Shown: piece after piece, positions 7,015-55,983 of the stretch
Layout of the letters: each line of letters opens with the position of its first letter
Numbering within the stretch: the first letter of the stretch is position 1
Source of the DNA: Hoeflea sp.
GTDB lineage: Bacteria; Pseudomonadota; Alphaproteobacteria; Rhizobiales; Rhizobiaceae
DNA length: 64,000 nucleotides
Reading direction: 5' to 3'
Assembly: GCF_002733955.1 (NCBI RefSeq)
Contig: NZ_NVXQ01000002.1
Location: forward strand, 186,001-250,000
Notes under the pieces: generated by a model
The model's input: only the letters and a program-made list of their open reading frames with translations
What the model was told of the DNA's origin: nothing
The model's database searches: none
Position numbers and translations under genes: made by a program

Positions 7015-7149
7015 GCTTGATCCCTGCGAACCCGGTTAATACAATGCGGCGACCCCTGCAGGGGGTAGGTTCCCGGCGCACCGGCGTCAAGGCCAAACAG
7101 TTGAACTTCTGGTCAAAGCTCCCATGTAAAAGGCCAAAGGAACAAAGAC

Positions 7150-7479: not shown

Positions 7480-7518
7480 CGAGGTGATCTGTCGGCTCTC
7501 TGCCTTCATGAAACACGA

Positions 7519-7552
7519 AAGGCTCGGATGCGATAAAGCATCCGGGCCTTTT
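7519..7552. terminator. Rho-independent terminator after hspQ, probably shared with ialB
   Basis: Thirteen-base arms AAGGCTCGGATGC and GCATCCGGGCCTT, with one G-T pair, flank a 6-base loop (GATAAA) and run into TTTT on the plus strand. The minus strand has a matching T run after its own stem, so it can serve both convergent genes. Confidence 0.85.
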
Positions 7553-7575
7553 CAATGCACGATGATCGAGTGCGA

Positions 7576-8184: not shown

Positions 8185-8487
8185 TTGGTTTCAGTACTCC
8201 TCATAGGCGGCCATCGGGCCGCGTAGGTTCGCGCGGACACCGCGCCCTCATGTATATGTCGCGCCTTCTCGATTGAAAATGCGGCGACAGCAAGGCTTGT
8301 TTCGGCTTCCTGTTACCGCGTGAAGGCATGAATATCCAGCCCGGCAGCGGGGTTGGGTCAAAAAAATCCTGCCTCGCCCGCTCAGTGGTGGCCTGTTACA
8401 GGAGGCCCGTATATTCTCGGGATTGGGATTCGGCGGTGGCGAATTCCCGGGGAAACCGCCACCCATCACCCTTCGTGAGGAGCGAGA
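8185..8487. other. Divergent upstream region of ialB-like and YejA-like genes
   Basis: About 300 bases with no credible gene. It must hold promoters for the divergent ialB-like and solute-binding-protein genes. Bases 8435-8463 contain an inverted repeat (GGTGGCG and CGCCACC, 15-base loop) inside the probable 5' leader of the plus-strand gene, about 24 bases before its ATG. Confidence 0.55.
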
Positions 8488-10311: not shown

Positions 10312-10351
10312 CCCGCACGACCCGTAATCAAAACACCCGAAAGGTGAAGCC

Positions 10352-37613: not shown

Positions 37614-38018
37614 ATGCGTATTCCACCGAGATTGTCGAAACGCTCGAAGCCCGAGCCGACCATCGCTCTCATCAACATCGTTTTCCTGATGCTGATCTTC
37701 TTCATCGTCGCGGCACAGATCGCGCCCCCGCTCGAGGGCGATCTCAAGCTGGTCTCGACCGCTGAGCTTGAAAACCGTGAACCGCCTGACGCGCTCGTGG
37801 TCATGCCTGACGGTCTGATGAAATACCGGGGCGCTCTGGTCACGCCGGCGCATTACGTCACCATCAAGCAGGAATCCAACCCCGACGAGCTCAAGTCCAT
37901 TCGCCTGGTTCCCGATCGGGAGCTGGCCGCGGTCAAGCTCATCGATATCGGCAATGAACTGCGCAGCCTCGGCGCGGAAAAAATCATGCTCGTGACCGAA
38001 CAGGGGCTTGCCCAGTGA
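37614..38018 (+). CDS. ExbD-like protein (second copy) with the channel Asp replaced
   Basis: 134-residue ExbD/TolR-like protein: cytoplasmic start, one helix (IALINIVFLMLIFFIVAAQIA, residues about 17-37) and a periplasmic domain ending KIMLVTEQGLAQ. Where ExbD has Asp in the helix (LIDVIF in the neighbour) this copy has Asn (LINIVF), so it cannot carry protons in the same way. Tandem ExbD copies may form a heterodimer inside the ExbB pentamer. Its stop overlaps the tonB GTG start by 4 bases (GTGA). Confidence 0.88.
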   Translation: MRIPPRLSKRSKPEPTIALINIVFLMLIFFIVAAQIAPPLEGDLKLVSTAELENREPPDALVVMPDGLMKYRGALVTPAHYVTIKQESNPDELKSIRLVPDRELAAVKLIDIGNELRSLGAEKIMLVTEQGLAQ

Positions 38019-38995
38019 TCACCTCAGCATCCAGATTGCGCCTGGCGGCCATGGCCGCCGTCTTCGCCTCGTCCCTGTTGCATGTCGGCGCCATGGCCAT
38101 TGCACCGGAACTCACGGCCGATATCCGGATTGCCGGCAGCGATACCGAACAATCGGCAACGCTTGGCAGCAATTTCGCCGACCTGGTCAAGGCTGGCGAC
38201 AAGCTCGATCCGGCGGAAACCGACGATGCCACCGTCACCGAGCCGGAGGCCACACCACCGATCGAGCCGGTCATGACCGATGCCGCCAAGCCGGTGGTTC
38301 CGCAAGCCTACGCCGCAGTGTCGACGCCCGACTTCAAGATCGAGCCCTCGCAGACTGAAGGTCTCATCCCGCCGTCCCCGGTCGAGAAGCTGGAAGCGGT
38401 CAAGCCTGAAGTGGCCACGGTCCAGCCGCGCACCGAAGAGCTCAAGCCTGTCGAACCGAAGCCATCGGAGACCAGAGTTGAACCCGTCGAAACGGTAGAG
38501 GCTCTGACCCCGGTCGAAGAACCGGAAGTTGTTCCCACGCCAACTCCGAAGCCGAAACAGAAGGTTGCGAAAGCCAGGAAGGTTGAAAAGCCCAAGCAAG
38601 CGACGTCTGGGAATAAGCAGTCCAAGTCGAAGGTCAACAACAAGTCGGGCGCGCAGAATGGCAAGAAGAGCGCCAAGGCGGCCTCGAGCGGCAAGAGCAA
38701 GAAAAAGTCCAAGGCCAGAAATTCCGGCAACGCCGCTGCCTCGAACTATCCCGGCAAGGTCTATTCCAAGATCGCCAGAACGCGGCAGCGAAATGCCGGC
38801 GGCAGAGGTGTGGCCCAGGTCCGGTTCAATGTCTCATCCAGCGGCCGTGCGGTCAGTGTTTCGATCGCCAGAAGTTCCGGCAATGCGCGGATCGACAGCG
38901 CGGCGGTTGCCCATGTCAAACGCGCTTCGCCGTTCCCCAAACCGCCACCGGGCGCGCAGACACGCTACGTCATCCCGATTGAATTCCGGAGATAG
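38015..38995 (+). CDS. tonB: TonB-family energy transducer
   Basis: 326-residue protein that couples ExbBD to outer-membrane receptors. A signal-anchor helix (LRLAAMAAVFASSLLHVGAMAIA) starts at residue 8; a long Pro/Glu/Lys/Val-rich spacer spans about residues 60-240, acidic first (EPVETVEALTPVEEPEVVPT) then strongly basic (KPKQKVAKARKVEKPKQ); the C-terminal TonB domain (residues 245-326) has YPGKVYSKIARTRQRNAGG and VSIARSSGNARIDSAAVAHV and ends PIEFRR. Start is GTG overlapping the previous stop. Confidence 0.93.
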   Translation: MITSASRLRLAAMAAVFASSLLHVGAMAIAPELTADIRIAGSDTEQSATLGSNFADLVKAGDKLDPAETDDATVTEPEATPPIEPVMTDAAKPVVPQAYAAVSTPDFKIEPSQTEGLIPPSPVEKLEAVKPEVATVQPRTEELKPVEPKPSETRVEPVETVEALTPVEEPEVVPTPTPKPKQKVAKARKVEKPKQATSGNKQSKSKVNNKSGAQNGKKSAKAASSGKSKKKSKARNSGNAAASNYPGKVYSKIARTRQRNAGGRGVAQVRFNVSSSGRAVSVSIARSSGNARIDSAAVAHVKRASPFPKPPPGAQTRYVIPIEFRR

Positions 38996-38999
38996 GCGG

Positions 39000-39191
39000 A
39001 TGCAGCGAGTCAGAGATATCTGCCCACTGCAATTGCACAAGGCAGCAAGCGAACAACTTCACGGCGACGCAGCACTGGTTGAGTATTATCAACTGGCAGC
39101 CGCACACCCGGACGACCGGTCAGGAAGAGATGATGGTCGCCATTCGAACCACGAAGTATTCCTGTCCGCAGACCCATTAAGACCAACATGA
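39000..39191 (+). CDS. Possible small protein after tonB (63 residues)
   Basis: An ATG 4 bases after the tonB stop opens a 63-codon frame; GGAG within the tonB stop region is 8-10 bases upstream, a good translational position. The product (MQRVRDICPLQLHKAASEQL..., ending SADPLRPT) is hydrophilic with one Cys and no membrane helix. I recognise no family. Tight spacing within the heme operon supports it being real; short length and lack of homology knowledge argue caution. Confidence 0.35.
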   Translation: MQRVRDICPLQLHKAASEQLHGDAALVEYYQLAAAHPDDRSGRDDGRHSNHEVFLSADPLRPT

Positions 39192-39214
39192 TAACACACC
39201 AAGGAGACCAATAA

Positions 39215-39529
39215 ATGTTTATCGCAATGAACCGTTTTATCATCAATGAAGGCCATGAAAGCGCATTTGAAGACGTCTGGCGCAATCGCGATTCGAGCCT
39301 GAAAGAGGTTCCCGGGTTCCAGACCTTCCACCTGCTCAAGGGTCCGAAGAACAAGGAAACCGGACAGACGCTCTACGCCTCCCACACGGTCTGGGAAACG
39401 CACGCGCATTTCATCGACTGGACCAATTCTGAGAATTTCCGCAAAGCCCACAAGAATGCCGGCAACAACAAGGGAATGTATGCCGGCCACCCCAATTTCG
39501 AAGGCTTCGAATCCGTTCTCGACGCCTGA
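39215..39529 (+). CDS. Heme-degrading monooxygenase-like ABM protein (HmuQ/HmoA type)
   Basis: 104-residue ferredoxin-like alpha-beta barrel of the antibiotic-biosynthesis-monooxygenase (IsdG-like) superfamily. FIAMNRFIINEGHESAFEDVWRNRDS at the start, YASHTVWETHAHFIDWTNSENFRKAHKN in the middle (with candidate heme-binding His) and GHPNFEGFESVLDA at the end match rhizobial HmuQ/HmuD and Bacillus HmoA. Dimers of such proteins cleave heme to release iron. AAGGAGACCAATAA lies before the ATG. It is the last gene of the exb/tonB unit and may complement HmuS. Confidence 0.88.
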   Translation: MFIAMNRFIINEGHESAFEDVWRNRDSSLKEVPGFQTFHLLKGPKNKETGQTLYASHTVWETHAHFIDWTNSENFRKAHKNAGNNKGMYAGHPNFEGFESVLDA

Positions 39530-40214: not shown

Positions 40215-41009
40215 TCATGCCAGCCAGTCATCCAGCCTGGCCGCTCGGACCTCTGACATCAGCTTCAGGAACCCGTCAGCCTGATGCTGGGCGGTGGCTT
40301 CGCCCTTTTCCGCAGTCGCCAGCGCGGCTTCGCCAACAGCGCCGGCCGGGTTGATGTCACTGGCAATCCAGGCAAAGGCGTGGGTGCCGGTGTGGCGCAG
40401 CAGATCGAACTCCTTCTCCGCCCGGGTAACCGCGGAGACAAAGTTCTCGGCCTTGTTCATCGCCACCAGATCCTTGCGGAAATGCAGCATCAGCGACGTT
40501 TCGACATCGCCGCCGTGGATTCCGTATGACGTCTCGGTCTCGCTGTAGAGCCCGCCCGGCAGGCCGAACCGCATCCAGGAGGTCTTGACTGCCAGCATCC
40601 GCGCCCTGACCCGCAATTCGCGCGCAACGATGCCCATGATCTCTTCATTGCCGCCGTGAGAATTGACCAGCACCACCTTGCGGATCCCGGCGCGGGCGAT
40701 CGAATGGCCCAGTTCGACCCAATGATCGATCAGCGTGGTTGCCGGTATCGTCAGCGTTCCCGGCGCATGCTGATGTTCGTTGGATTTGCCAATGCATTGA
40801 ATGGGCAGGATCCGGATATCGAGATCGTCGGGCGCCTTCGCGATCACCGTCTCGATCATGCCCTGCATGATTGCGCTGTCGGTCGAGACCGGCAGATGCG
40901 GTCCATGCTGCTCGGTGGCGGCGATCGGAAGCACGGCAATCGTGCGGTCCGGATCTAGCTCTTCGAATTCCTGCGTCGTGAAGTCGCCCCACCAGATTTT
41001 CCGTGTCAT
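40215..41009 (-). CDS. Creatininase-family metal-dependent amidohydrolase
   Basis: 264-residue protein of the creatininase fold, whose members hydrolyse cyclic or linear amides (creatinine, the formamidopyrimidine of archaeal flavin synthesis). Metal ligands are visible: AATEQHGPHLPVSTDS (E, H and D), NSHGGNEE and HGGDVETSLMLHF (E). ATG 41009 has GAAGGA 8 bases upstream and is preferred to the ATG two codons earlier (41015). It follows the Rid gene by 42 bases and is divergent from the ABC importer and cytosine-deaminase operon, so it probably acts in the same pathway. Substrate unknown. Confidence 0.88.
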   Translation of the reverse strand: MTRKIWWGDFTTQEFEELDPDRTIAVLPIAATEQHGPHLPVSTDSAIMQGMIETVIAKAPDDLDIRILPIQCIGKSNEHQHAPGTLTIPATTLIDHWVELGHSIARAGIRKVVLVNSHGGNEEIMGIVARELRVRARMLAVKTSWMRFGLPGGLYSETETSYGIHGGDVETSLMLHFRKDLVAMNKAENFVSAVTRAEKEFDLLRHTGTHAFAWIASDINPAGAVGEAALATAEKGEATAQHQADGFLKLMSEVRAARLDDWLA

Positions 41010-41051
41010 CGTCATGTTCCTTCAGTGCTCAGTCAGTCGGTCTGTCGGTGC

Positions 41052-41438
41052 TCACTCGGGCGCTGCAGCGATAACTTCGATTTCCACCTTGAATTCCGCG
41101 CGGGCAAAGCCCGATACGATCATCAGCGTTGACGCCGGCGCAGGATCGGCAAACAGCCGGTCGCGAACCTTCATGTAACCCGGCAAATGGGCCCGGTCGG
41201 TGACGAAGGCATTGATCCGCACGATGTCGGCGAGCCCCATGCCCGCAGAGTCCAGCACCGCCGCGACGTTCGCAAAACATAATTCCGTCTGCTCTTCCGC
41301 GCTTTCCGGAACCTGGTCATCGGGCGTGATCGACAACTGCCCCGAACACAGCATCAACCGGTGTCCCGCCGGCACCTCCACGCCGTGGCTGTAGCGGGCA
41401 AACGGAGCCCGGATGGAACTTGGCGTGTGATGTTTCAT
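41052..41438 (-). CDS. Rid (YjgF/YER057c/UK114) family protein lacking the RidA arginine
   Basis: 128-residue trimeric Rid-fold protein. The core ADIVRINAFVTDRAHLPGYM and FKVEIEVIAAAPE match the family. Archetypal RidA deaminases carry Arg in the segment before the last strand; here the segment reads PAPASTLMIVSGFARAEF with Ser/Thr at that place, so it belongs to the Rid4-7 groups rather than RidA itself. Such non-archetypal Rid genes often sit in catabolic clusters, for example pyrimidine breakdown (RutC type), and may hydrolyse an imine or aminoacrylate-like intermediate. First gene of the minus-strand pair. Confidence 0.88.
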   Translation of the reverse strand: MKHHTPSSIRAPFARYSHGVEVPAGHRLMLCSGQLSITPDDQVPESAEEQTELCFANVAAVLDSAGMGLADIVRINAFVTDRAHLPGYMKVRDRLFADPAPASTLMIVSGFARAEFKVEIEVIAAAPE

Positions 41439-41731
41439 CAGCTGTGTCTCGGCGTGAAATTTGATCGAAACTCATTAAACCCACAAAATTTTCGCCGTCT
41501 ATTCCAAACCGGCACGCAATGGTCCAATCTGCAAAGATCGGTCAATGAAGGCGCATTATTGGGCAATATGGCTGCACAAGATGCAGTTTTTAGCGACACA
41601 GGCAGGGCGTCTGCCGAAAATCCCAAGGCCTTCCCGCCGCTGCCGGTGCTGGCATGGCGCTTGCAAGATCAAATGGTTGGCAAAATCCAAGGGGTGATTC
41701 GAAGCCCCGATCAAACCAAGGGATGGTGTAT

Positions 41732-42733
41732 ATGTCGCTTCTTCTTCGTTCTTCGGCCGCTTTGACGGCCATCCTGGCCCTTGGGTCGCAGGCAATCGCC
41801 GCCGAACAGGTGACGTTTGGCACAAACTGGCTGGCGCAGCCCGAGCATGGCGGCTTCTATCAATCCGTCGCCGATGGCACCTATGAAGCCTGCGGCCTCG
41901 AAGTCACCATCGCCCAGGGCGGCCCGCAGGTGAACAACCGCGCGCTGCTGCTGGCCGGCAAGATCGAGTTCCACATGGGCGGCAACATGCTCGAGGCTTT
42001 TTCGGCGGTTGAACAGAACATTCCGGTCAAGGTGGTCGCGGCCTCGTTCCAGAAGGAGCCGCAGGTGCTCATGACCCATCCCGGTCAGGGCCTCGACACC
42101 TGGGAAGAGCTCAAGAATGCCGAGCAGTTCATTCTCGGCGATGCCGGCTTCCAGAGCTATTACCAGTACATGATCACCGAATACGGTTTCGATGCGTCCA
42201 AGCGCGTGCCCTATACCTTCAACCCGGCGCCGTTCATCGCCAATCCGAAATCCGCCCAGCAGGGCTACATCACCTCGGAGCCATTCGCCGTCGAGCGTGA
42301 AGGCGGCTTCAAGCCGAACCTGTTCCTGGTTGCCGATTACGGCTTTGACACCTACTCGACCACCATCGAGACCATGCAGGCAACAATCGATGAGAAGCCC
42401 GAGGTGGTGAAATGCTTCGTCGAGGGCTCGATCAAGGGCTGGTACAATTACCTCTATGGCGACAACTCAGCCGCCAACGCCCTGATCCAGAAAGACAATC
42501 CGGACATGAGCGATGAGCAGATCGCGTTTTCGATCGAGAAACTCAAGGAATACGGCATCGTCGATTCCGGCGACACCGAAACCATGGGCATCGGCGCCAT
42601 GACCGACGAACGGATGGCTAGCTTCTACGACAAGATGGTCAAGTCCGGCGTGGCCAAGGAAGGCATCGACATCAAGGCCTCCTACACGCTCGACTACGTC
42701 AATGACGGCCTCGGCCTCAATCTGAAAAACTAA
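41732..42733 (+). CDS. THI5/NMT1-like ABC transporter substrate-binding protein
   Basis: 333-residue periplasmic protein with a signal peptide ending near residue 25 (GSQAIAAEQ). TFGTNWLAQPEHGGFYQSVADGTYEA is the hallmark of the THI5-like group that binds pyrimidines such as the thiamin precursor, related to nitrate/sulfonate/taurine binders. ATG 41732 has AAGGGA 8 bases upstream; an ATG at 41723 falls inside that ribosome site. It is followed by a strong hairpin and then the ATPase and permease genes, so the binding protein can be made in excess. The ligand is probably a pyrimidine-like heterocycle by family. Confidence 0.9.
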   Translation: MSLLLRSSAALTAILALGSQAIAAEQVTFGTNWLAQPEHGGFYQSVADGTYEACGLEVTIAQGGPQVNNRALLLAGKIEFHMGGNMLEAFSAVEQNIPVKVVAASFQKEPQVLMTHPGQGLDTWEELKNAEQFILGDAGFQSYYQYMITEYGFDASKRVPYTFNPAPFIANPKSAQQGYITSEPFAVEREGGFKPNLFLVADYGFDTYSTTIETMQATIDEKPEVVKCFVEGSIKGWYNYLYGDNSAANALIQKDNPDMSDEQIAFSIEKLKEYGIVDSGDTETMGIGAMTDERMASFYDKMVKSGVAKEGIDIKASYTLDYVNDGLGLNLKN

Positions 42734-42741
42734 TGCAATAT

Positions 42742-42777
42742 CCCGCCCGGATGACGATCGTCCGGGCGGGTCCTTTT
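42742..42777 (+). terminator. Intra-operon terminator/attenuator after the binding-protein gene
   Basis: Ten-base arms CCCGCCCGGA and TCCGGGCGGG with a 9-base loop, followed by TCCTTTT, lie 8 bases after the binding-protein stop and 30 bases before the ATPase gene. It should let only part of the transcripts continue, keeping binding protein above transporter levels. Confidence 0.8.
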
Positions 42778-42806
42778 GATCCCGCACGCATAGCTTCTGG
42801 ACACCC

Positions 42807-43610
42807 ATGCCCGACCGGAAAAGCCCATTCCTGATCCTGCAATCGATCGGCAAGACCTTCGCATCCGGCGTCACAGCGCTGGAAAATGTCAATCTGACGG
42901 TCAACGAAGGCGACTTCATGAGCCTTCTCGGACCCTCGGGCTGCGGCAAGTCCACAGCACTCAGGATCATTGCCGGATTGTCGTCGCCGACCTCCGGCGT
43001 AGTCGACTGGCGCCGTGCACCGCTCAAGCAAAACGACATCGGTTTTGTCTTCCAGGAACCGACCTTGCTGCCCTGGGCCAGCGTCTATGACAATGTCTGG
43101 ATGCCGTTGCGGCTGCGCGGTGTTTCGCGAAAAGACGCCGAACCGCAGATCGCCGAGGTGCTCGAACGCGTCCACCTCACGGGCTTTGAGAATGCCGTTC
43201 CACGCGAACTTTCCGGCGGCATGAAAATGCGCGTCTCCATCGCCCGCGGGCTCGTCACCCGCCCGCGTATCCTGCTGATGGACGAACCCTTCGCAGCCCT
43301 TGATGAGATTACAAGATTCAAGCTCAACAACGACCTCCTGGAACTCTGGCAGGCGCGCGGCTTCACCGTCATTTTCGTCACCCATTCGGTATTCGAAAGT
43401 GTCTTTCTGTCGAACCGCATCACCGTCATGGCCGCCAGACCCGGACGGGTCTACAAGGAGGTGGCGGTCGACGCACCCTATCCGCGCGCCCAGAGTTTTC
43501 GGACATCGCCGGAATATGCTGCCTTGTGCAGAAACACATCCGATGTGCTGGTAGAAGCGATCAATGCAACGGCGGAAGACCTGGAGGCAGTCGATCATGT
43601 CGGCCATTGA
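42807..43610 (+). CDS. ABC transporter ATP-binding protein (SsuB/TauB class)
   Basis: 267-residue cytoplasmic ATPase of the nitrate/sulfonate/pyrimidine importer class. Walker A LLGPSGCGKSTALRIIAG (about residue 40), Q-loop VFQEPTLLPWASVYDNVWMP, signature ELSGGMKMRVSIARGL and Walker B ILLMDEPFAALDEITR are intact. FGVTALENVNLTV-like N-terminus (FASGVTALENVNL) is normal. It overlaps the permease gene by 14 bases. Confidence 0.93.
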   Translation: MPDRKSPFLILQSIGKTFASGVTALENVNLTVNEGDFMSLLGPSGCGKSTALRIIAGLSSPTSGVVDWRRAPLKQNDIGFVFQEPTLLPWASVYDNVWMPLRLRGVSRKDAEPQIAEVLERVHLTGFENAVPRELSGGMKMRVSIARGLVTRPRILLMDEPFAALDEITRFKLNNDLLELWQARGFTVIFVTHSVFESVFLSNRITVMAARPGRVYKEVAVDAPYPRAQSFRTSPEYAALCRNTSDVLVEAINATAEDLEAVDHVGH

Positions 43611-44454
43611 TCAGCACGTTAAAACCACTCCGGTCGACCCCGATGAAGCCCGCCGCGTGCGCCTGCGCAAGCTCGAGCGCACTGGTAGCTGGCTGCTGCC
43701 GTTGATCATCATGATTGCAGCGATCGCGCTATGGGACCGGATCTGCGTCTGGAACGGCATCCCGCAATACATCCTGCCGCGCCCCGGCGTGGTGCTGACC
43801 ACCATGATCGAGGACGCGGGACTGCTGTTCTCGTCGCTGCTTGTCACGCTCCGGATTACCTTGTTGTCGCTCGCCTTGGCCGTCATCGGCGGCGTCGGCC
43901 TGTCGGTGCTGTTCACCCAGTCCCGCTTCATCGAGATGAGCCTGTTTCCCTTTGCCATCGTGCTGCAGGTGACTCCGATCGTGGCGATCTTCCCGCTGAT
44001 CAACATCTATGTCGACGACCAGACCACCAAGCTGCTGCTCTGTGCCTGGATCGTCGCCTTCTTTCCGATCCTGTCCAACACCACGCTGGGGCTGAATTCG
44101 GTTGACCGCAATCTGATCGATTATTTCAAGCTCAATGGCGCCAGCCGCTGGCAGACCCTGTGGCACTTGAGGCTTCCCGCAGCGATGCCCTATTTCCTGG
44201 GGGGCTTGAAGATCGCCGGTGGCCTGGCGCTGATCGGAGCCGTGGTCGCCGAATTCGTCGCCGGCACCGCGGGCCAGTCGTCCGGCCTTGCCTCGCGCAT
44301 CATCGAGGCCGGCTACCGGCTCAACGCGCCACGGCTGTTTGCAGCACTGATACTGATCTCGCTCACCGGTATCATCATCTTCCTGCTCTTGTCCTGGATT
44401 TCCCACCTCGCGCTGCATCGCTGGCACGAGAGCGCGTTGAAGCAGGAGCAGTAA
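43597..44454 (+). CDS. ABC transporter permease (SsuC/ThiX class)
   Basis: 285-residue inner-membrane permease with six helices. The BPD_transp_1 EAA loop reads YFKLNGASRWQTLWHLRLPAAMPYFLGGLKI in overlapping parts (GASRWQTLWHLRLPAAMP). ATG 43597 has GGAGG 9 bases upstream inside the ATPase gene; the longer frame from 43564 is rejected. It forms the importer with the two preceding genes and ends directly at the GTG of the deaminase gene. Confidence 0.92.
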   Translation: MSAIDQHVKTTPVDPDEARRVRLRKLERTGSWLLPLIIMIAAIALWDRICVWNGIPQYILPRPGVVLTTMIEDAGLLFSSLLVTLRITLLSLALAVIGGVGLSVLFTQSRFIEMSLFPFAIVLQVTPIVAIFPLINIYVDDQTTKLLLCAWIVAFFPILSNTTLGLNSVDRNLIDYFKLNGASRWQTLWHLRLPAAMPYFLGGLKIAGGLALIGAVVAEFVAGTAGQSSGLASRIIEAGYRLNAPRLFAALILISLTGIIIFLLLSWISHLALHRWHESALKQEQ

Positions 44455-45777
44455 GTGACACAGCTCCCTATCACCCTGCCCGCCTCCGGGGCCTATACAC
44501 TCGCCAATCTCAGGCTGCACAGATCTCACTTGGACAAGACCGGCGGTTTTGCGTTCGACAGCGAAGGCTTTGCGCTTGCATATGTCTCCATTTCAGACAG
44601 CGCAATCACGTCGATCCACCCGGCGACTGACACCACCAACATGCCCGATCCGATCGATTGTCGCGGCGCGATCGCCTTCCCGGCCTTCGTCGATTGCCAT
44701 ACCCATATCGACAAGGGTCACATCTGGGCTCGCAAGCCGAATCCTGACGGCAGCTTTCCCGGCGCGCTGACCGCGGTCGGGGAAGACCGCGAAGCCAACT
44801 GGTCGGCCCATGATGTCGAGCGCCGGATGGAGTTTTCGCTCCAATGCGCCTATGCCCACGGCACCAAGGCTTTGCGCACCCATCTCGATTCCGTGCCGCC
44901 GCAGGAAGACATTTCCTGGCCGGTCTTCGAGACCATCCGCGAGCGCTGGAAAGGACGCATCGAGCTGCAGGCCGCCTGTCTGTTCGGCATCGACCAGGCA
45001 CAGGACGAAGCCTGGTTCAACCGGCTGGCGGACACCGTCGCCCGGCATCGCGGCATCCTGGGCGCTGTCACCTACATGGTGCCCGATCTCGATGCGCTGC
45101 TCGACCGCATGTTCACCAAGGCGATTGCTCTGGAGCTCGATCTCGATTTCCACGCCGATGAGACCGATGACGTCAACGCGGTCTCGCTCGACCGTATTGC
45201 CGACGCTGCGTTGAGACACGGATATGAGGGCAAGATCCTCGTCGGCCATTGCTGCTCCTTGGCGCGCCAGCCCGATGACAAGGTCAAGGCAACGCTCGAC
45301 AAGGCGGCCAGGGCCGGCCTCTCCGTCGTCTCGCTGCCGATGTGCAACATGTATCTGCAGGACCGCCGTGCGGATGCGACCACGCCGCGCTGGCGTGGCG
45401 TCACGCTGCTGCACGAAATGGCCGACCGCGGCATCAATACCTGCGTGGCGTCGGACAACACCCGCGACCCGTTCTATGCCTATGGTGATCTCGATGTGCT
45501 GGAAGTCTACCGCGAATCCACCCGCATCCTGCATTTCGACCACCCGGTCGGCGCCTGGCCGGCCACCGTCGCCGCCAACCCGGCGCAGGCCATGGGCCTT
45601 GCCGACGCAGGTATCCTCAAACCCGGCGCTTCCGCGGACCTGATCCTGTTCCGCGGCCGCAGCCTGACCGAACTTCTCTCTCGCCCCGAAAGCCGCCGAA
45701 CACTTATCCGTGCAGGAAAGCTCATTGACGCGACTGTCCCCGACTACCAAGACCTAGATGATTTGATGGAGCCCTGA
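44455..45777 (+). CDS. Cytosine deaminase-like amidohydrolase
   Basis: 440-residue metal-dependent hydrolase of the CodA branch of the amidohydrolase superfamily, acting on exocyclic amines or ring amides of N-heterocycles. Visible metal residues: FVDCHTHIDKGHIW (H82, H84), LDFHADETDD, LVGHCCSLA and ASDNTRDPFYAYGDLD (the catalytic Asp). CodA relatives deaminate cytosine, isoguanine, creatinine or atrazine products, so substrate is open. GTG start right after the permease stop, with AGGAG 6 bases upstream. Transport and deamination are thus in one transcript. Confidence 0.88.
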   Translation: MTQLPITLPASGAYTLANLRLHRSHLDKTGGFAFDSEGFALAYVSISDSAITSIHPATDTTNMPDPIDCRGAIAFPAFVDCHTHIDKGHIWARKPNPDGSFPGALTAVGEDREANWSAHDVERRMEFSLQCAYAHGTKALRTHLDSVPPQEDISWPVFETIRERWKGRIELQAACLFGIDQAQDEAWFNRLADTVARHRGILGAVTYMVPDLDALLDRMFTKAIALELDLDFHADETDDVNAVSLDRIADAALRHGYEGKILVGHCCSLARQPDDKVKATLDKAARAGLSVVSLPMCNMYLQDRRADATTPRWRGVTLLHEMADRGINTCVASDNTRDPFYAYGDLDVLEVYRESTRILHFDHPVGAWPATVAANPAQAMGLADAGILKPGASADLILFRGRSLTELLSRPESRRTLIRAGKLIDATVPDYQDLDDLMEP

Positions 45778-45780
45778 GCC

Positions 45781-47178
45781 ATGGACATGACCGCACTGAT
45801 CGCCGAGCTGGACGGCATCCGCCTCGAGCAGAACGACAAGATCATTCAGCAGAAAAGCCGCGATTTCTACTGGTATTCACCGGTGCTCAAGCGCCAGCTC
45901 GACCATGTCACCGGCGATCTTGTGGCCTCGCCCAGGACCGAAGACGAGCTGATCCGTATCCTCAAGGCCTGTTACGCCCATGATGTCCCGGTGACCCCGC
46001 GCGGCACCGGCACCGGCAATTACGGCCAGGCGATGCCCTTGTCCGGCGGACTGGTTCTCAGCCTTGCCGACATGAATGACATCAAGGAGATCTCGCCCGG
46101 CCGGGTGACTTGCGGTCCCGGCGTCATCTGCTCCGATCTCGACAAGGCAACACGCGAGCACTCGGCCCAGGAAATGCGGATGCACCCCTCGACCTACCAC
46201 ACCGCAACTGTCGGTGGCTTTATCGCCGGCGGCTCGGGCGGCGTCGGTTCGATCAACTGGGGCGGCCTGCGCGATTTCGGCAACATCATTCGCCTGCGTG
46301 TCGTCACCATGGAAGAAGAGCCGCAGGTGCTGGAACTCACCGGCGAGGATCTGCACAAGGTCACCCACGCCTACGGCACCAACGGCATCATCACCGAAAT
46401 TGAAATGCCGCTCGCGCCCGCCTACGACTGGGTCGATACCATCGTCGGCTTCGACAGCTTTGACGAAGCGACCATCTACGCCAATGCGCTGGCGCGGCAG
46501 GACGGCATCCTCACCAAGCTGATCACCGTTGTGGCGGCACCCTGCCCGTTTGACTATTTCAAGCGGCATCAGAAATTCCTTCGCGACGGCCAGAGCGTGG
46601 TTCTGGTGATGACGGCACCGCACAGCCATGACGCCTTCAAGGCCTTCACCGCACGCCACAGCGGCGAGATCGTGTTCGACGCGAGCGCAGTGGAAGACCT
46701 CAAGGGCCTGCCGCCGGTGTTCGAGCTCGCCTGGAACCACACCACGCTGCGCGCGCTCAGGGTCGATCCGGCCTGGACCTATCTGCAGTCACTCTATCCC
46801 TTCCCCAACCAGCTTGAACTCGCCGCGAAGATGGAACGCATGTTCCCCGGCGAGATGATCTCGCATCTCGAATTCGTCCGTTTTGACGGCGACATCACCT
46901 GTTTCGGCCTGCCGCTGATCCGCTTCACCACCGAGGAACGGCTCGATGAAATCGTCGCGCTGCACCATCAGCATGGCTGCCCGGTGTTCAATCCGCACCG
47001 CTTCACGCTCGAGGAAGGCGGCATGAAGCAGACCGACGAGATCCAGCTCGAATTCAAGCGCCAGGCCGACCCCAAGGGCCTGCTCAACCCGGGCAAGATG
47101 ATCGCCTGGGATGACCCGGACTATGATTTTGATGCGGGAGAGACCTGGTTGTTCAAGGGTTTGAAACAGGCAAGCTGA
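45781..47178 (+). CDS. FAD-binding oxidoreductase (GlcD/VAO family)
   Basis: 465-residue flavoprotein. The PCMH FAD-binding domain (about residues 40-215) contains VTPRGTGTGNYGQAMPLSGG, VTCGPGVICSDLDKAT and TVGGFIAGGSGGVGSINWGG; the C-terminal FAD oxidase domain ends LNPGKMIAWDDPDYDFD. Such enzymes oxidise alpha-hydroxy acids, lactones or amines. It begins 3 bases after the deaminase stop (GGAG 9 bases upstream), so it is a pathway enzyme of the cluster. Substrate unknown. Confidence 0.88.
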   Translation: MDMTALIAELDGIRLEQNDKIIQQKSRDFYWYSPVLKRQLDHVTGDLVASPRTEDELIRILKACYAHDVPVTPRGTGTGNYGQAMPLSGGLVLSLADMNDIKEISPGRVTCGPGVICSDLDKATREHSAQEMRMHPSTYHTATVGGFIAGGSGGVGSINWGGLRDFGNIIRLRVVTMEEEPQVLELTGEDLHKVTHAYGTNGIITEIEMPLAPAYDWVDTIVGFDSFDEATIYANALARQDGILTKLITVVAAPCPFDYFKRHQKFLRDGQSVVLVMTAPHSHDAFKAFTARHSGEIVFDASAVEDLKGLPPVFELAWNHTTLRALRVDPAWTYLQSLYPFPNQLELAAKMERMFPGEMISHLEFVRFDGDITCFGLPLIRFTTEERLDEIVALHHQHGCPVFNPHRFTLEEGGMKQTDEIQLEFKRQADPKGLLNPGKMIAWDDPDYDFDAGETWLFKGLKQAS

Positions 47179-47188
47179 GGCAGAAGCC

Positions 47189-47770
47189 ATGCGCGTTCTC
47201 GTCGTTCACGCCCACCCCGTCGCAGCCAGCTTCAATGCCAGCCTGTTTCGCCTCACCGTCGAGCGGCTGGCGGCAAACGGCCATGAAGTAGACGCCATCG
47301 ATCTTTACGAGGACGGCTTCAACCCGGTCATGAGCGAGACCGAGCGATTGAATTACCATGATCTCGAGATCAACCGGAAACCGGTCGAGCGCCATGTCGA
47401 CCGGCTGCTCGCAGCCGAAGCGTTGGTGCTGGTCTATCCGGTCTGGAATTACGGTTTTCCCGCCATTCTCAAGGGCTGGTTCGACCGGGTGTTCCTGCCC
47501 GGCGTGTCTTTTGGACTGGTGGATGGTAAGGTCCGCCCGACACTGCACAATATCGGCAGGATCCTGGTCGTCACCTCCTATGGCGGCTCCCGCTTCCGCT
47601 CCTGGCTGATGGGGGACCCGCCGCGCAAGATCGCCAACCGGATGCTCCGCGCCACCGTCAGGCCCGGCGCGCCCGTCACCTACCTCGCCCACTACGAAAT
47701 GAACCTTTCAACCGACAAGACACGGCAATCTTTCATGTCCAGGGTGGAAAGAGCTTGGGACAAATTCTGA
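47189..47770 (+). CDS. Flavodoxin-fold NAD(P)H-dependent oxidoreductase (first of tandem pair)
   Basis: 193-residue NQO1/MdaB/KefF-like protein. MRVLVVHAHPVAASFNASLF binds FMN/FAD phosphate, and VLVYPVWNYGFPAILKGWFDRVFLPG is the family flavin-contact segment. It shares its layout with the next gene, so the pair arose by duplication. The stop codon overlaps the next ATG by one base (TGATG). Probably supplies two-electron reduction of a quinone or ring intermediate. Confidence 0.88.
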   Translation: MRVLVVHAHPVAASFNASLFRLTVERLAANGHEVDAIDLYEDGFNPVMSETERLNYHDLEINRKPVERHVDRLLAAEALVLVYPVWNYGFPAILKGWFDRVFLPGVSFGLVDGKVRPTLHNIGRILVVTSYGGSRFRSWLMGDPPRKIANRMLRATVRPGAPVTYLAHYEMNLSTDKTRQSFMSRVERAWDKF

Positions 47771-48363
47771 TGCGTATTCTCCTGATCTATTGCCACCCGG
47801 TGCCCGAAAGCTTCTGTGCCGCCATCCGCGACACCGCCGTGAGAACCCTTGAGACGGCCGGCCATGAGGTCGATCTGCTGGATCTCTATGCCGAGGGTTT
47901 CGACCCGGTGATGCCGGCGGATGAACGCCGCCGCTACAACGAGATGCAACGCGCCGATCATCCCTACCCGGACCACGCCGCCCGGCTTGAGGCCGCCGAA
48001 GGCTTGCTGTTTGTCTATCCGACCTGGTGGTACGGGCTGCCCGCCATGCTCAAGGGCTGGCTTGACCGGGTCTGGACCCCGGAGCTGACATTTCACATGT
48101 CCGATGGCCCCGGCCCGATCGAGCCGCTGATGACCCACATCAACCTGCTCGGCGTCATCACCACCTGCGGCGCGCCGCGCTGGTGGTCCTATGTCGTCGC
48201 CCATCCCGGCAAGCGCACCATCCTGCGCGGCATGCGCGCGCTGTGCGGCAAATCCTGCCGGCGGCTGTTCATGGCGCATTATTTGATGGACAAGTCGACG
48301 CCTGAAAGCCGGGCGCGCTATCTCGCCTCTATTGAAAAGCGCCTCATGAAGATCAGAGGCTGA
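47770..48363 (+). CDS. Flavodoxin-fold NAD(P)H-dependent oxidoreductase (second of tandem pair)
   Basis: 197-residue paralog of the preceding protein: MRILLIYCHPVPESFCAAIR at the N-terminus and LLFVYPTWWYGLPAMLKGWLDRVWTP in the centre. The C-terminal half (CGAPRWWSYVVAHPGKRTILRGM) has diverged more. Last gene of the plus-strand operon; it converges on maiA with 5 bases between the stops. Whether the two copies form a heterodimer or act on different substrates is unknown. Confidence 0.88.
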   Translation: MRILLIYCHPVPESFCAAIRDTAVRTLETAGHEVDLLDLYAEGFDPVMPADERRRYNEMQRADHPYPDHAARLEAAEGLLFVYPTWWYGLPAMLKGWLDRVWTPELTFHMSDGPGPIEPLMTHINLLGVITTCGAPRWWSYVVAHPGKRTILRGMRALCGKSCRRLFMAHYLMDKSTPESRARYLASIEKRLMKIRG

Positions 48364-48368: not shown

Positions 48369-49019
48369 TCAGAAATTGTTGCTGTCCGGATGCGCTTTGA
48401 CAAATGCCGGCAGCTGATCGCAGGCCTGCCGGATCGCCTGAATCCGCGGCATCGCCGACATGTCTATTCCCCAGCGGTCGGCATTGTAGACCTGCGGCAT
48501 CAGGCAGATATCGGCCAGCCCCGGCGTGTCGCCGTGACAGAACCTGCCGGTCTCCGCGTGATCGAGCATTGCCTCGAACGACGCAAGGCCCTGCGAGATG
48601 AAATACTGCATCCAGTCCGACCGCGCTTCGGCACCGCCGCCGGTGATCTCCATCACATGCGCGACAACCGATAGATTGCACACCGGGTGGATATCCATTG
48701 CGATCGCATGCGCCAGAGCCCGCACCCGCGCCCGGCCAGGCAGATCGTCCGGCAACAGCGGCAGCCCCCGGGTCTCGATCAGATACTCGATGATCGCCAG
48801 CGACTGCGTCAGCATCAACCCGTCAATTTCCAGAGCCGGAACAAAGCCTTGCGGATTGCGCTCCAGGTGCTCGGCAGCCTTGTGCGCCCCATCGAGCAGA
48901 TTGACCACCACCGGCCTGTACTCGATGCCCGCGAGGTTCAGGGCGATGCGCACCCGGTAGCTCGCCGACGAGCGCCAGTAGTCGTAAAGAACCGGCATTT
49001 GCTCCGCCATCTCGCTCAT
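48369..49019 (-). CDS. maiA: Maleylacetoacetate isomerase (zeta-class glutathione transferase)
   Basis: 216-residue cytosolic enzyme converting maleylacetoacetate to fumarylacetoacetate with glutathione, in tyrosine/homogentisate degradation. SSASYRVRIALNLAGI (residues 17-32) is a variant of the zeta-class SSCSWRVRIAL motif with Ala for Cys, and NPQGFVPALEIDG with LTQSLAIIEYL forms the glutathione site. It overlaps the DUF2783 gene by 4 bases (ATGA). Last gene of the homogentisate run that starts at hmgA. Confidence 0.92.
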   Translation of the reverse strand: MSEMAEQMPVLYDYWRSSASYRVRIALNLAGIEYRPVVVNLLDGAHKAAEHLERNPQGFVPALEIDGLMLTQSLAIIEYLIETRGLPLLPDDLPGRARVRALAHAIAMDIHPVCNLSVVAHVMEITGGGAEARSDWMQYFISQGLASFEAMLDHAETGRFCHGDTPGLADICLMPQVYNADRWGIDMSAMPRIQAIRQACDQLPAFVKAHPDSNNF

Positions 49020-49210
49020 TCCTTCCGCGCAGCGGCCTGCAGCGCCTCCGACAGCACCTGCCGGTCGCCGATGTGATTGGCCAGCAACAGGATCAGCCGC
49101 GCATTGAGCGCATCACTCTCCGCCTTGCTCAGCCCCTCATGCACCGCAAGCAATTCGGCATAGAATTCGTCCGGGGCCTTGATGTTGGCTTTGGTATTGA
49201 GAGAAGTCAT
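49016..49210 (-). CDS. DUF2783 small protein
   Basis: 64-residue acidic, helical protein (APDEFYAELLAVHEGLSKAES, ARLILLLANHIGD). This family is found beside aromatic FAD hydroxylases and homogentisate genes, so a partner or chaperone role is possible but unproven. It starts 3 bases after the FAD hydroxylase stop and overlaps maiA, so it is firmly inside the operon. Confidence 0.85.
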   Translation of the reverse strand: MTSLNTKANIKAPDEFYAELLAVHEGLSKAESDALNARLILLLANHIGDRQVLSEALQAAARKE

Positions 49211-49213
49211 TGT

Positions 49214-50821
49214 CTATCGCCCCATCGCCTTGCCAAGGGCCGCCGTCACCGCGGCCTCATCGAAAGCCTCCCAGCGCGCAGCAACATGCTGGTCCGGGCG
49301 AACCAGATAGACGCCGGATACGGCATCCCCCAGATAACGCTGTTTCAGATACCCGTCCGGATCATCAGCCGTTGAAAGCGCCAAACGTTTGCATCCAACA
49401 CCATATTCCGGGAGCGGCTCGGGCGTCTCCGCATCGATGGTCAGCAGATGAAAGGCTGATCCCAGCCGGTCGAACAGCCAGCCCCCGGGCACCGGTGCAT
49501 CCACCATCGGCGAGCCTGGCCGGGTGCGCTCCGGCATCACGGCGCAGTCCGGACCATTGAGCGGCGACCCGTCATAGGTACACGGCACCGAAAGCCGGCC
49601 CGAATTGACCATCGGCCGCGTTGCCTCGTAGCGTTCGGACAAATCCAGCACCGCATCGCGAAAGATCCGGCTGATCTCCGATTTCGGCGTGATGAAATCG
49701 GTCGAGCGCGAGGAATTGAGAATGTTCTCATCGGCTCCATGCACTCGCTCGACATCGTAGCTGTCGAGCAATGTAAGCGGTGACTTTCCATCGACGATGA
49801 GTTTCAGCTTCCAGGCCAGATTGTCGGCGTCCTGCAGCCCGGAATTGGCGCCTCGCGCCCCGAACGGAGAAACCTGGTGCGCCGAGTCGCCGGCAAACAG
49901 CACCCTGCCCTCGCGGAACCGGTCCATCCGGCGGCACTGGAACGTATAGATCGAGCTCCATTCCAGCTGGTAGCTGATCTCGTCGCCCAGCATGGCGCGC
50001 AGGCGCCTGTCGATGTTTTCCGGCTTGAGTTCCTTCTCGCGGTCAATGTCCCAGCCAAGCTGGAAATCGATGCGCCAGACATTGTCGGGCTGCTTGTGCA
50101 ACAGCGCCGACTGGCCGCGATTGAATGGCGGGTCGAACCAGAACCATCTCTCCGTCGGAAAATCGGCTTCCATCACCACGTCGGCAATCAGGAAATTGTC
50201 TTCGAACACCCGCCCAGTGAATTCGAGCCCGAGCAGCGTCCGGATCGGGGATGCCGCGCCATCGCAGGCAACCACCCAGTCTGCCGAAATCTGGTACGGC
50301 CCGTCCGGTGTACCGATGGTCAGTTCCGCGCCACTGTCGTGCTGGCTGACATCGAGTACCTTGCTTCCACCGCGCAGCTCGATCGGCTTGCCCTCGGCTT
50401 GGAGTTCACGCACCCGGTCGACCAGGAACTGCTCCAGGTAATATTGCTGCAGATTGATGAAAGCGGGCCGCTTGTGTCCCTCTTCGGGCAACAGGTTGAA
50501 GCCGAACACCTGGCGCTCGTCGAAATAGACCTTGCCCAGGTTCCAGACCACGCCCTTGTCGACCATCGGGTCGCCGCAGCCCAACCGGTCGAGGATTTCC
50601 AAAGGCCGTTTGGCAAAGCAGATCGCCCGCGAGCCCCAGCTTACCTTGTCATTTTCATCAACGACGACAACCGGCACATCCTGCATCGCCAGATCAATCG
50701 CAAGCGCCAGCCCCACCGGCCCGGCGCCGACCACCACCACCGTGTGCCGCACGGGCGTCGCGGCATCCTGATCTGGGGAACGCTGATAGGGATACAGCGG
50801 AACCTCGAAGACTTTACTCAT
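49214..50821 (-). CDS. MhpA-like FAD-dependent aromatic hydroxylase
   Basis: 535-residue flavoprotein monooxygenase of the PheA/TfdB/MhpA branch. VVVVGAGPVGLALAIDLAMQ (about residues 27-46) binds FAD, DWVVACDGAASPIR is the middle motif, VLFAGDSAHQVSPFGARGANSG is the third, and a thioredoxin-like C-terminal domain follows. ATG 50821 has GGGAGG 6 bases upstream; the longer frame to 51106 overlaps the MBL gene and is rejected. Placement between MBL/FAH/hmgA and maiA suggests it makes homogentisate, or a related 2,5-dihydroxy compound, from a monohydroxylated aromatic acid such as 3-hydroxyphenylacetate. That is inference. Confidence 0.87.
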   Translation of the reverse strand: MSKVFEVPLYPYQRSPDQDAATPVRHTVVVVGAGPVGLALAIDLAMQDVPVVVVDENDKVSWGSRAICFAKRPLEILDRLGCGDPMVDKGVVWNLGKVYFDERQVFGFNLLPEEGHKRPAFINLQQYYLEQFLVDRVRELQAEGKPIELRGGSKVLDVSQHDSGAELTIGTPDGPYQISADWVVACDGAASPIRTLLGLEFTGRVFEDNFLIADVVMEADFPTERWFWFDPPFNRGQSALLHKQPDNVWRIDFQLGWDIDREKELKPENIDRRLRAMLGDEISYQLEWSSIYTFQCRRMDRFREGRVLFAGDSAHQVSPFGARGANSGLQDADNLAWKLKLIVDGKSPLTLLDSYDVERVHGADENILNSSRSTDFITPKSEISRIFRDAVLDLSERYEATRPMVNSGRLSVPCTYDGSPLNGPDCAVMPERTRPGSPMVDAPVPGGWLFDRLGSAFHLLTIDAETPEPLPEYGVGCKRLALSTADDPDGYLKQRYLGDAVSGVYLVRPDQHVAARWEAFDEAAVTAALGKAMGR

Positions 50822-50870
50822 GACACCTCCCGGAAAAGGAGCGCCTTCCCGGGCCGCTCCCCCAAACGCC

Positions 50871-51821
50871 TTATCCTTGAAGCTGCGCCCACATTGCAGC
50901 GTCGCGCTCGGCGGTCCAGATCCGTGGCGTGTCGATATCGAGCGCCTCGTCATAGGCCCGCGCCACGTTGAACGGCAGGCAGTGCTCATAGATCGCGTAG
51001 TCCGAGAATTTCGGGTCGCACTCGGCCCGGCAGGCATCCCAGGCTTCCTTGAGCGAACCGCCGCGAAGCGCGACCTGGGCCACCGGCCGGTAGGTCGAGC
51101 GGACAAAGTCAGTGGTGGAATCGAGCGCGGCTTTGACCATGGCCTTGCCCGTCAGCGCATCGCCCCTGCCTGGCGCGATCGCATCGACGTCGAAGGACCG
51201 GATCTTTTCAACCGTCGTCGGCCAGTCATGGAAATGCCCGTCACCGCAATAGCAGGCCGAATGGTACTCGACGATATCGCCGGTGAACATCACGTTTTCA
51301 TCCGGCACATAGGCGACGATGTCACCGGCCGTGTGGGCGCGGCCGAGAAACATCAGGTCGACCCGGCGCTTGCCGAGATAGACCGACATCCGGTTGTTGA
51401 ATGTCGTCGTCGGCCATGTCAGGCCGGGAATCGATTCATGTCCCTGGAACAGCCGGGGAAAGCGCTCGAATTCCGAATCCCAGTCTTCCTGGCCGCGTTC
51501 GGCAACCATCGAACGGGCCTTCTCGCTCATGATGATCTGCTGCGCGCCATAGCCTGAAGCGCCGAGCACGCGCACCGCATGGTAATGGGTCAGCACAAGA
51601 TGCGTGATCGGCTTGTCGGTGATCGAGCGGACCTTTTCGATCACCTTGTTGGCGAGCCGCGGCGTTGCCTGCGCCTCGATGATCATCACGCTGTCATCGC
51701 CGATGATGACGCCCGAATTGGGGTCGCCTTCGGCGGTAAATGCCCACAGGTCGCGACCGATCTCGGTGAACGAGATCTGTTTTTCCGCCATGTCGCCGGC
51801 GGATGCGAATTTCTTGCTCAT
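50871..51821 (-). CDS. MBL-fold protein with an incomplete metal site
   Basis: 316-residue metallo-beta-lactamase-fold protein. The usual HxHxDH reads H79-Y-H81-A-V83-R84, so the second-site Asp and His are gone; the later GRAHTAGD keeps H163, D182 is present, but the distal PGHG His is replaced by Arg (PGRG, R219). Thus site 1 ligands remain and site 2 is lost. The body is otherwise well conserved (VMFTGDIVEYHSACYCGDGHFHDWP has several extra His and Cys). It lies 9 bases after the FAH-family gene and 49 bases before the hydroxylase gene, so it belongs to aromatic catabolism; function unknown. Confidence 0.87.
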   Translation of the reverse strand: MSKKFASAGDMAEKQISFTEIGRDLWAFTAEGDPNSGVIIGDDSVMIIEAQATPRLANKVIEKVRSITDKPITHLVLTHYHAVRVLGASGYGAQQIIMSEKARSMVAERGQEDWDSEFERFPRLFQGHESIPGLTWPTTTFNNRMSVYLGKRRVDLMFLGRAHTAGDIVAYVPDENVMFTGDIVEYHSACYCGDGHFHDWPTTVEKIRSFDVDAIAPGRGDALTGKAMVKAALDSTTDFVRSTYRPVAQVALRGGSLKEAWDACRAECDPKFSDYAIYEHCLPFNVARAYDEALDIDTPRIWTAERDAAMWAQLQG

Positions 51822-55083: not shown

Positions 55084-55938
55084 CTATTTCAGCTTTTCGA
55101 TCATGGCCGAGAAATCGCGGCCTTTGCCGTCACCAGACACGAACGCGTCATAGAGCTCGGTCGCCCGTGCCCCCATCGGCGTCTGCGCCGACACGCTGCC
55201 TGCCGCCTGTTGCGACAGCTTCAGGTCCTTGAGCATCAGCTCGGCGGCAAAACCGGGCTTGTAGCCATTGTCAGCCGGGCTTTGCGGACCGACACCGGGC
55301 ACAGGGCAATAGGTGTTGACCGACCAGCACGAGCCCGACGAGGTCGAGACCACGTCAAACAGGCCTTGCGCCGACAGCCCCAGTTTCTCGGCCAGCGCAA
55401 AGGCCTCACACGTACCGATCATCGAAATGCCAAGCAGCATGTTGTTGCAGATCTTGGCCGATTGCCCGGCACCGGCAGCCCCGCAATGCACCGCCTTCTG
55501 GCCCATGATCTCGAACAGCGGTGCGGCCCGGCCAAAGGCCTCGTCGCTGCCGCCGGCCATGAAGGTCAGCGTTCCGGCCGCCGCTCCGCCGACGCCGCCC
55601 GATACCGGCGCATCCACCGACAGCAGCCCCCTGGCAGCCGCCAGCTCATGCGCGGCTTTGGCGCTGTCCACATCCACCGTCGAGCAATCGATAAAAACCG
55701 AGCCCTTTGCACCCGCAGGAACAATCTCGGCATAGACCGAGCGCAGGATTTCGCCATTCGGCAGCATGGTGATCACCGCGTCCTGCCCGCTCGCAGCGTC
55801 CGCCGCAGAGCCTGCCTTGGCGGCCCCTTCGACGGTGACGCCCGCCACATCGAAGCCTGTCACTTCATGCCCGGCCTTGATCAGGTTCGCCGCCATCGGC
55901 GCACCCATGTTTCCCAGTCCGATAAATCCGATTTTCAT
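55084..55938 (-). CDS. mmsB: 3-hydroxyisobutyrate dehydrogenase
   Basis: 284-residue NAD-dependent beta-hydroxyacid dehydrogenase, converting 3-hydroxyisobutyrate to methylmalonate semialdehyde in valine breakdown. GFIGLGNMG (residues 4-12) binds NAD, DAPVSGGVGGA (109-119) is the substrate loop, and K162 in AKICNNMLLG is the catalytic Lys. GGGAGG lies 6 bases before the ATG. Last gene of the mmsA-ACAD-HIBCH-mmsB operon. Confidence 0.94.
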   Translation of the reverse strand: MKIGFIGLGNMGAPMAANLIKAGHEVTGFDVAGVTVEGAAKAGSAADAASGQDAVITMLPNGEILRSVYAEIVPAGAKGSVFIDCSTVDVDSAKAAHELAAARGLLSVDAPVSGGVGGAAAGTLTFMAGGSDEAFGRAAPLFEIMGQKAVHCGAAGAGQSAKICNNMLLGISMIGTCEAFALAEKLGLSAQGLFDVVSTSSGSCWSVNTYCPVPGVGPQSPADNGYKPGFAAELMLKDLKLSQQAAGSVSAQTPMGARATELYDAFVSGDGKGRDFSAMIEKLK

Positions 55939-55983
55939 GACGTCCTCCCAAACTTCATTCGCAAATGGCAGAAAATGCCGCAG

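Follow-up and report, generated by a model that had tools for sequence, protein, structure and literature searches.

Nine genes at positions 40215 to 48363 of a 64,000-nucleotide (nt) window of Hoeflea sp. DNA (contig NZ_NVXQ01000002.1, positions 186,001 to 250,000; all coordinates are those of this window) probably form a unit for the uptake and oxidative breakdown of folate or of folate-derived pterins. What is observed is that the genes are present and conserved together, and that one product, the flavin oxygenase FAD (45781..47178, plus strand), is nearly identical to an enzyme deposited as one of folate catabolism; every step beyond the folate link of this enzyme is inferred.

In a phmmer comparison with PDB entries 6V42 and 6V43, the FAD protein scores 955 bits with 465 of 465 residues aligned, and 6V42 is also the first match (85% identity) of a PDB query with a structure model of the protein. 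The title of 6V42, released 2020-12-02, reads 'Crystal structure of the flavin oxygenase with cofactor bound involved in folate catabolism'. With a mean pLDDT of 72 the model is middling, and its use was to retrieve titles of entries; sequence comparison gives the match to 6V42 as well. Next come D-lactate and D-2-hydroxyglutarate dehydrogenases, at 18-21% identity. An earlier note on this DNA had named the protein a GlcD-like FAD oxidase, which holds for the FAD-binding half (FAD_binding_4, 5.3e-29) but not for the rest: the glcD model covers residues 49-231 only (95 bits versus a cut-off of 568), the FAD-oxidase_C domain (PF02913) gave no match at 0.001, and the motifs GDGN and GEHG, which we take to mark enzymes of the D-lactate/D-2-hydroxyglutarate dehydrogenase type, occur in 0 of 82 family members. 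A hydroxy-acid oxidase of the GlcD/D-lactate dehydrogenase type was rejected on these grounds and, because the domain and both motifs went undetected, 'GlcD-like' names an FAD-binding fold, not a reaction. Judged from sequence, one of the nine enzymes can thus be assigned, as a putative activity, to a pathway already named by others, folate catabolism.

Layout and proposed chemistry

The genes lie in two divergent groups and were assigned to families with Pfam and NCBIfam, which confirmed the nine named families and the divergent arrangement described in the earlier note. On the minus strand are a creatininase-family, metal-dependent amide hydrolase of HGGN type (CRN, 266 aa, 40215..41015; PF02633, 1.5e-66) and a Rid-family protein that has Ser where RidA has its catalytic Arg (RID, 128 aa, 41052..41438; PF01042, 1e-22). 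The plus strand carries, in order, an NMT1/THI5-type periplasmic binding protein (SBP, 41732..42733; PF09084, 2.4e-20) with an N-terminus that looks signal-like by eye, an ABC ATPase (ATP, 42807..43610; PF00005, 3.4e-33), an ABC permease of BPD type (PERM, 43597..44454; PF00528, 2.1e-23), a cytosine-deaminase-fold amidohydrolase proposed to be a pterin/folate deaminase (AMH, 44455..45777; NF005759, 623.8 bits), FAD, and two flavodoxin-fold NAD(P)H oxidoreductases proposed as electron donors, FLV1 (Flavodoxin_2, 47189..47770; PF02525, 1.7e-31) and a second copy, FLV2 (47770..48363; PF02525, 7.2e-33). The permease was taken to start with the ATG at 43597, although a longer version would begin at 43564. 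Measured on the sequence, spacings within the groups range from -14 to 36 bases (CRN-RID 36, ATPase-permease -14, permease-AMH 0, AMH-FAD 3, FAD-FLV1 10, FLV1-FLV2 -1), except for 73 after SBP.

This wider gap, which the earlier note had described as an attenuator, holds a 13-pair stem (42742..42770, plus strand, 3' of the SBP gene). Of 74 loci in which this gap measures 20-300 nt, 42 fold below -20 kcal/mol over its first 80 nt (a count made without a shuffled comparison), and the sequences listed differ from one another. The idea of a special attenuator was dropped for these reasons, and we read the stem as an ordinary intercistronic hairpin behind a binding-protein gene. The divergent intergenic region (41439..41731) is presumed, from sequence reading, to hold the promoter region for both transcripts; no sigma-70-like match was found within it, and promoter-like and terminator-like sites in the region at large did not rise above the level of shuffles (3 versus 2.1 and 6 versus 6.5). 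An Rfam scan returned one tRNA only.

Pterin bears an amidine open to attack by a deaminase of this kind, which would yield lumazine, a compound with a uracil-like ring. In the scheme favoured here, SBP and the ABC importer would bring in a pterin or folate fragment, from which AMH would remove the 2-amino group of the cyclic amidine to give the lumazine (pyrimidinedione) form. FAD may then oxidise the lumazine-type ring with electrons presumably supplied by the flavodoxin-fold reductases, after which CRN would hydrolyse a ring amide or formamide, the order and the chemistry both being proposals, and RID could help hydrolysis of an unstable product, so that ring nitrogen becomes available. More tentatively, it is possible that such units represent a widespread and largely undescribed Rut-like opening of the pterin ring. 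In it, an enzyme of cytosine-deaminase fold would yield the pyrimidinedione, an FAD oxygenase of PCMH/VAO fold would break this open, and an HGGN hydrolase of creatininase fold and an Arg-less Rid protein would complete the breakdown. The reductase that supplies the electrons would be exchangeable, being of flavodoxin fold in rhizobia and many relatives and of ferredoxin type in Klebsiella and Pantoea.

Conservation of the gene set

A scan of named genomes with FAD alignment gave at least 532 confirmed stretches, in which a gene may have been counted twice, and the best 80 loci were retained. AMH neighbours FAD in all 80, the permease and a flavodoxin-fold reductase in 79 each, SBP and the ATPase in 76 each, RID in 73 and CRN in 71. 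The full eight gene types are present in 67 of the 80 loci, and six of the 13 incomplete ones are stretches shorter than 14 kb that end at a contig end; two or more copies of the reductase are found in 39 of the 80. At this locus, Hoeflea species are the nearest named relatives, their FAD proteins being 84-86% identical, and the gene set is present in rhizobia including R. leguminosarum WSM1325, is common in nodule isolates and is found in intertidal and algal isolates.

As the best 80 loci are the closest relatives, an additional search of whole genomes for the FAD protein (E 1e-60) was made in two draws with some genomes in common, one across the phylum (398 genomes) and one across the class (385 genomes). 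The protein was found in 32 genomes of the phylum draw, 14 of them from the host's own family, and in 19 of the class draw. These gave 58 distinct FAD places, 51 of which are covered by 46 tallied stretches, the window's own included; stretch L219 overlaps another and was excluded, and seven places in six genomes (G330, G348, G395, G462 with two, G465:C12 and G625) lie outside the tally. Within 8 kb of FAD, the 46 loci have AMH in 38, SBP and the ATPase in 37 each, the permease in 36, CRN and a flavodoxin-fold reductase in 32 each and RID in 26. CRN, AMH and the whole importer stand together in 25 loci, in 20 of which RID is present as well, and two loci have none of these partners. Thresholds in this tally were set by us and the models were built from Rhizobiales, so that divergent partners are undercounted, and some stretches are limited by contig ends; the RID model missed an annotated RidA (locus L114), which makes the RID counts lower bounds. 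Together, the 67 relatives with all eight types and the 46-locus tally bear out the recurrence across genomes on which the earlier note had made its reading depend.

Since only two creatininase-family genes exist in the 4.86-Mb host genome, the repeated neighbourhood of CRN and FAD goes far beyond chance. Distances between the components also increase in parallel, with Spearman coefficients of 0.66-0.82 (378 pairs from 28 loci, uncorrected for shared host ancestry).

The gene next to FLV2, maiA (48369-49019), was considered as a further member and left out: it lies within the stretch in 4 of the 80 relatives and adjoins FLV2 in three, all Hoeflea. Its neighbours in the window are an FAD hydroxylase and a SoxH-like hydrolase.

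Substrate clues from the partner proteins

AMH passes the 'cytosine deaminase' model NF005759/PRK07583 (cut-off 403). Its nearest Foldseek matches are 4r7w/4r88, AtzC and CodA, the fold being closest to 5-methylcytosine deaminase, and alignment to 1k6w together with family conservation indicates that the metal-binding and catalytic core of CodA (HxH, HxxE, H, D) is kept. The residues that we take to read cytosine in CodA, namely Gln156, Asp314 and Trp319, are all replaced in AMH and 17 relatives. At the position of Gln156 (paired in our own alignment; in the HMMER alignment this Gln has no partner), 16 of the 18 sequences have Ile, Val or Leu, one has Thr, one Phe and none Gln, and all 18 have Asn for Asp314 and Phe for Trp319. 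A literal cytosine deaminase was rejected on this basis. Lys87 and Arg337 are invariant in the family and would suggest an acidic substrate. Bacterial pterin/folate deaminases group with cyclic-amidine amidohydrolases, near predicted cytosine and creatine amidases (PMC9513972). Relatives of AMH also occur in Aminobacter niigataensis MD1 (57% identity; L120, 12010-13302) and Shinella sp. HZN7 (54%; L116, 11938-13311), where an FAD-oxygenase gene is not adjacent and the neighbours are RidA, a GTP-binding protein, another ABC importer, an isochorismatase, a 2-hydroxymuconate tautomerase and opine-dehydrogenase-like and DpsA-like genes; these clusters apparently serve a different pathway.

CRN falls short of the cut-off of each of four family models, MftE, creatininase (TIGR04448, 86.8 versus 235), IolN and ArfB. 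Among 72 aligned members, the window's included, EQHGPHLP is found in 72 and NSHGGN in 71, and the GHYE of true creatininase in none. Compared with 1q3k, the EQHG and HGG-ETS motifs are kept, with HGGN where creatininase has HYEN (His120-Tyr121-Glu122). With His-Tyr-Glu in 0 of 72 members and a model score below the cut-off, CRN was rejected as a literal creatininase. Since a characterised relative from the creatininase family, BrbF, is described as a formamide hydrolase (PMC9478397), the family name leaves the substrate undefined.

In the RID family, P.P.STL is present in 74 of 75 members and PAR[ASTC] in none, and the alignment places Ser at the position of the catalytic Arg of RidA; an Arg-dependent RidA imine deaminase was rejected accordingly. 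In a study of the family, the Rid4-7 groups, which are without the catalytic Arg, 'remain mysterious', and about 10% of RidA proteins also carry Ser at that position, so that RID may still belong to the RidA subfamily (PMC4433059). 'Endoribonuclease L-PSP' is the former name of Rid proteins, and we apply this identification to a gene of Variovorax paradoxus. In that species, a conserved 'endoribonuclease' gene lies downstream of the pterin/folate deaminase (PMC9513972).

The profile of SBP matches 4nmy (1.8e-13), which we take to be a thiamin-bound structure, and 3ix1, a formylaminopyrimidine-binding protein (2.1e-6). SBP thus shares its binding-protein family with ThiXYZ/Thi5 salvage, from which the cluster differs in having no TenA or ThiD. 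Salvage of the thiamin pyrimidine was set aside because neither gene is among the nine, as the earlier note had held; a TenA gene is present on another contig (C31). The Rut pathway was likewise set aside, in agreement with that note, as RutA was unmatched in the host genome. The likeness to Rut is one of logic: a pyrimidinedione ring would be the target of a flavin oxygenase plus flavin reductase, along with a Rid protein and an amide hydrolase. In contrast to Rut, the unit has no RutA, another oxygenase fold, an ABC importer in place of a permease and an extra deaminase.

Among the other known systems that come close is that of 6V42/6V43, where FAD is 85% identical over its full length and only the enzyme has been deposited. 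Folic acid degradation by Variovorax sp. F1 (carboxypeptidase G and pterin deaminase) and Arad3529 share with the unit a deaminase of the cyclic-amidine group and a nearby Rid-type gene, while the oxygenase, creatininase and importer are not described in the part of that paper available and carboxypeptidase G is not seen here (PMC9513972). The Lum pathway for riboflavin and lumichrome resembles it as a dedicated cluster that fully degrades a pteridine-like vitamin and hydrolyses a fused pyrimidinedione, but the enzymes described for it differ, and its main text is without creatininase, cytosine deaminase or folate (PMC12746152). The enzyme set for riboflavin degradation in PMC12752717 differs as well. 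A review covers RutA-type flavin oxygenases and, in the portion available, leaves folate unmentioned (PMC7662398).

Competing readings, variant loci and meaning

Several observations weigh against folate or pterin breakdown. The folate link comes from a single deposited title and the activity is putative; in the open-access literature no paper was found on 6V42 or its operon or reaction, although a subscription publication may exist. CRN was unrecognised in 14 and RID in 20 of the 46 tallied loci, counts that set lower bounds on presence, and either protein may be dispensable in some loci. Of the 14 tallied loci without a flavodoxin-fold reductase, one has a PDR/VanB reductase and two a TauD oxygenase, and neither was found in 11, which leaves the electron-donor argument weak outside the main group. 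Relatives of AMH at 44-57% identity occur in other settings (L116, L119 and L120) that have no annotated FAD gene close by, so that AMH is no specific marker of the FAD pathway; any kinship to Arad3529 or to Variovorax PDA is hypothetical. No carboxypeptidase G or aminobenzoate gene appeared in the neighbours among the matches listed; the profiling took 101 open reading frames (ORFs) chosen from 194 candidates in 23 loci, listed the 25 most frequent families out of 78 and out of 154, and returned mostly unrelated genes, so that rarer folate genes could be missed. In R. leguminosarum WSM1325, the molybdenum hydroxylase genes paoABC adjoin the unit (L033, 1-3682) and might oxidise pterins, yet a molybdenum hydroxylase neighbour is found in only 5 of 81 loci.

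An unlikely alternative keeps folate and changes the chemistry: FAD would cut the C9-N10 bond between pterin and aminobenzoate through an imine, with RID or CRN handling the remainder. Cytokinin oxidase, an enzyme that splits a side-chain amine, does share the fold of FAD (6c80, matched weakly at E 0.00036), and Rid genes cluster with FAD-dependent amine oxidases (PMC4433059). Against this reading, RID lacks the Arg, which imine hydrolysis by RidA requires (PMC4433059), the title of 6V42 says oxygenase, not oxidase, and the conserved reductases would be left without an obvious role.

It is distinctly unlikely, though worth weighing, that the folate label of 6V42 is an annotation guess and that the substrate is a broader or different fused pyrimidine, such as plant or algal pteridines or other 2-amino-4-oxo heterocycles. 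The nodule, intertidal and algal isolates that carry the unit would suit such a substrate, as would divergent FAD copies, roughly 40% identical, that stand beside TauD, PDR/VanB or Rieske partners, and the tandem paralogues described below, but no alternative compound is directly supported here. It is very improbable that the unit takes up cytosine, 5-methylcytosine or creatinine for deamination and for ring opening by a creatininase, a reading in line with the pyrimidine-like or creatinine-like ring inferred in the earlier note: the 'cytosine deaminase' model, the 5-methylcytosine deaminase-like fold and the family of CRN speak for it, but the residues that define cytosine deaminase (replaced in 18 of 18) and creatininase (0 of 72) are missing, and a folate-catabolism oxygenase at 85% identity would go unexplained.

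The variant loci bear on the role of the reductases in the folate or pterin reading. In a Klebsiella pneumoniae plasmid and in Pantoea (L230), a LysR gene precedes a core of AMH, RidA, CRN, importer and FAD (about 40% identical), where a PDR/VanB reductase is present and the flavodoxin-fold reductase absent; a search for the Klebsiella FAD gene in E. coli gave no match. The ferredoxin-type PDR/VanB reductase stands at L114, L199 and Pantoea L230, loci without the flavodoxin-fold type, and L194 has both. Such an exchange fits an FAD enzyme that needs electrons from outside, and therefore an oxygenase. Ruegeria sp. TM1040 and two related loci have a TauD-type oxygenase after FAD, with no flavodoxin-fold reductase or NMT1-type importer recognised, and in Nitratireductor sp. 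OM-1, CRN, AMH and FAD are accompanied by a DAO-type oxidase, a hydantoinase/oxoprolinase and a ring-hydroxylating dioxygenase. RutB/BiuH-like hydrolases, below model cut-offs, lie near FAD and CRN in the divergent loci L189 (10336-11151) and L214 (7963-10548), the latter also with an AtzE-type amidase; a RutB match at 1e-40 was found in three of the 101 profiled ORFs, one being that of L214, and L189 matches at 3.2e-36. These neighbours fit release of a ureido product and hint that a ureido or biuret-like compound is the end point of some of the pathways; divergent FAD copies may well act on other substrates. Tandem FAD-oxygenase paralogues stand beside AMH in L205 (two, ~7713-10400) and L209 (three, ~6688-10500), suggesting substrate diversification.

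Elsewhere in the window, maiA (maleylacetoacetate isomerase) belongs to an aromatic cluster on the minus strand (48369-51821) with a PRK08132-type FAD hydroxylase and a SoxH-like zinc hydrolase. A TonB-family protein followed by the haem-degrading HmuQ lies at 38015-39529, and valine catabolism genes (3-hydroxyisobutyrate dehydrogenase, 3-hydroxyisobutyryl-CoA hydrolase and acyl-CoA dehydrogenase) at 55084-58151.

The earlier note's broader proposal, a system for uptake and degradation of an N-heterocycle, stands as far as context goes, but the system is not wholly new, given the 85% identity of FAD to 6V42. Among open-access papers, most subscription papers being outside this scope, none was found that describes the gene set, whether sought by the set itself or through bacterial pterin catabolism. 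'Undescribed' is nevertheless too strong, as the FAD enzyme is already known to structural biologists; the full set, its distribution and the exchange of partners were not found in the open-access papers searched.

Folate degradation in the environment 'has not been fully elucidated' (PMC9513972). Carboxypeptidase G and pterin deaminase are known for it, but no enzyme is known to open the ring. A conserved set tied to a solved oxygenase names a candidate importer, deaminase, electron donor and hydrolases, and the labels 'cytosine deaminase' and 'creatininase' on these genes are probably wrong. If true, the pterin route could supply a role for Rid proteins in which the catalytic Arg is missing. 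With relatives of FAD in at least 532 stretches and with rhizobia that are genetically tractable, the question is directly testable.

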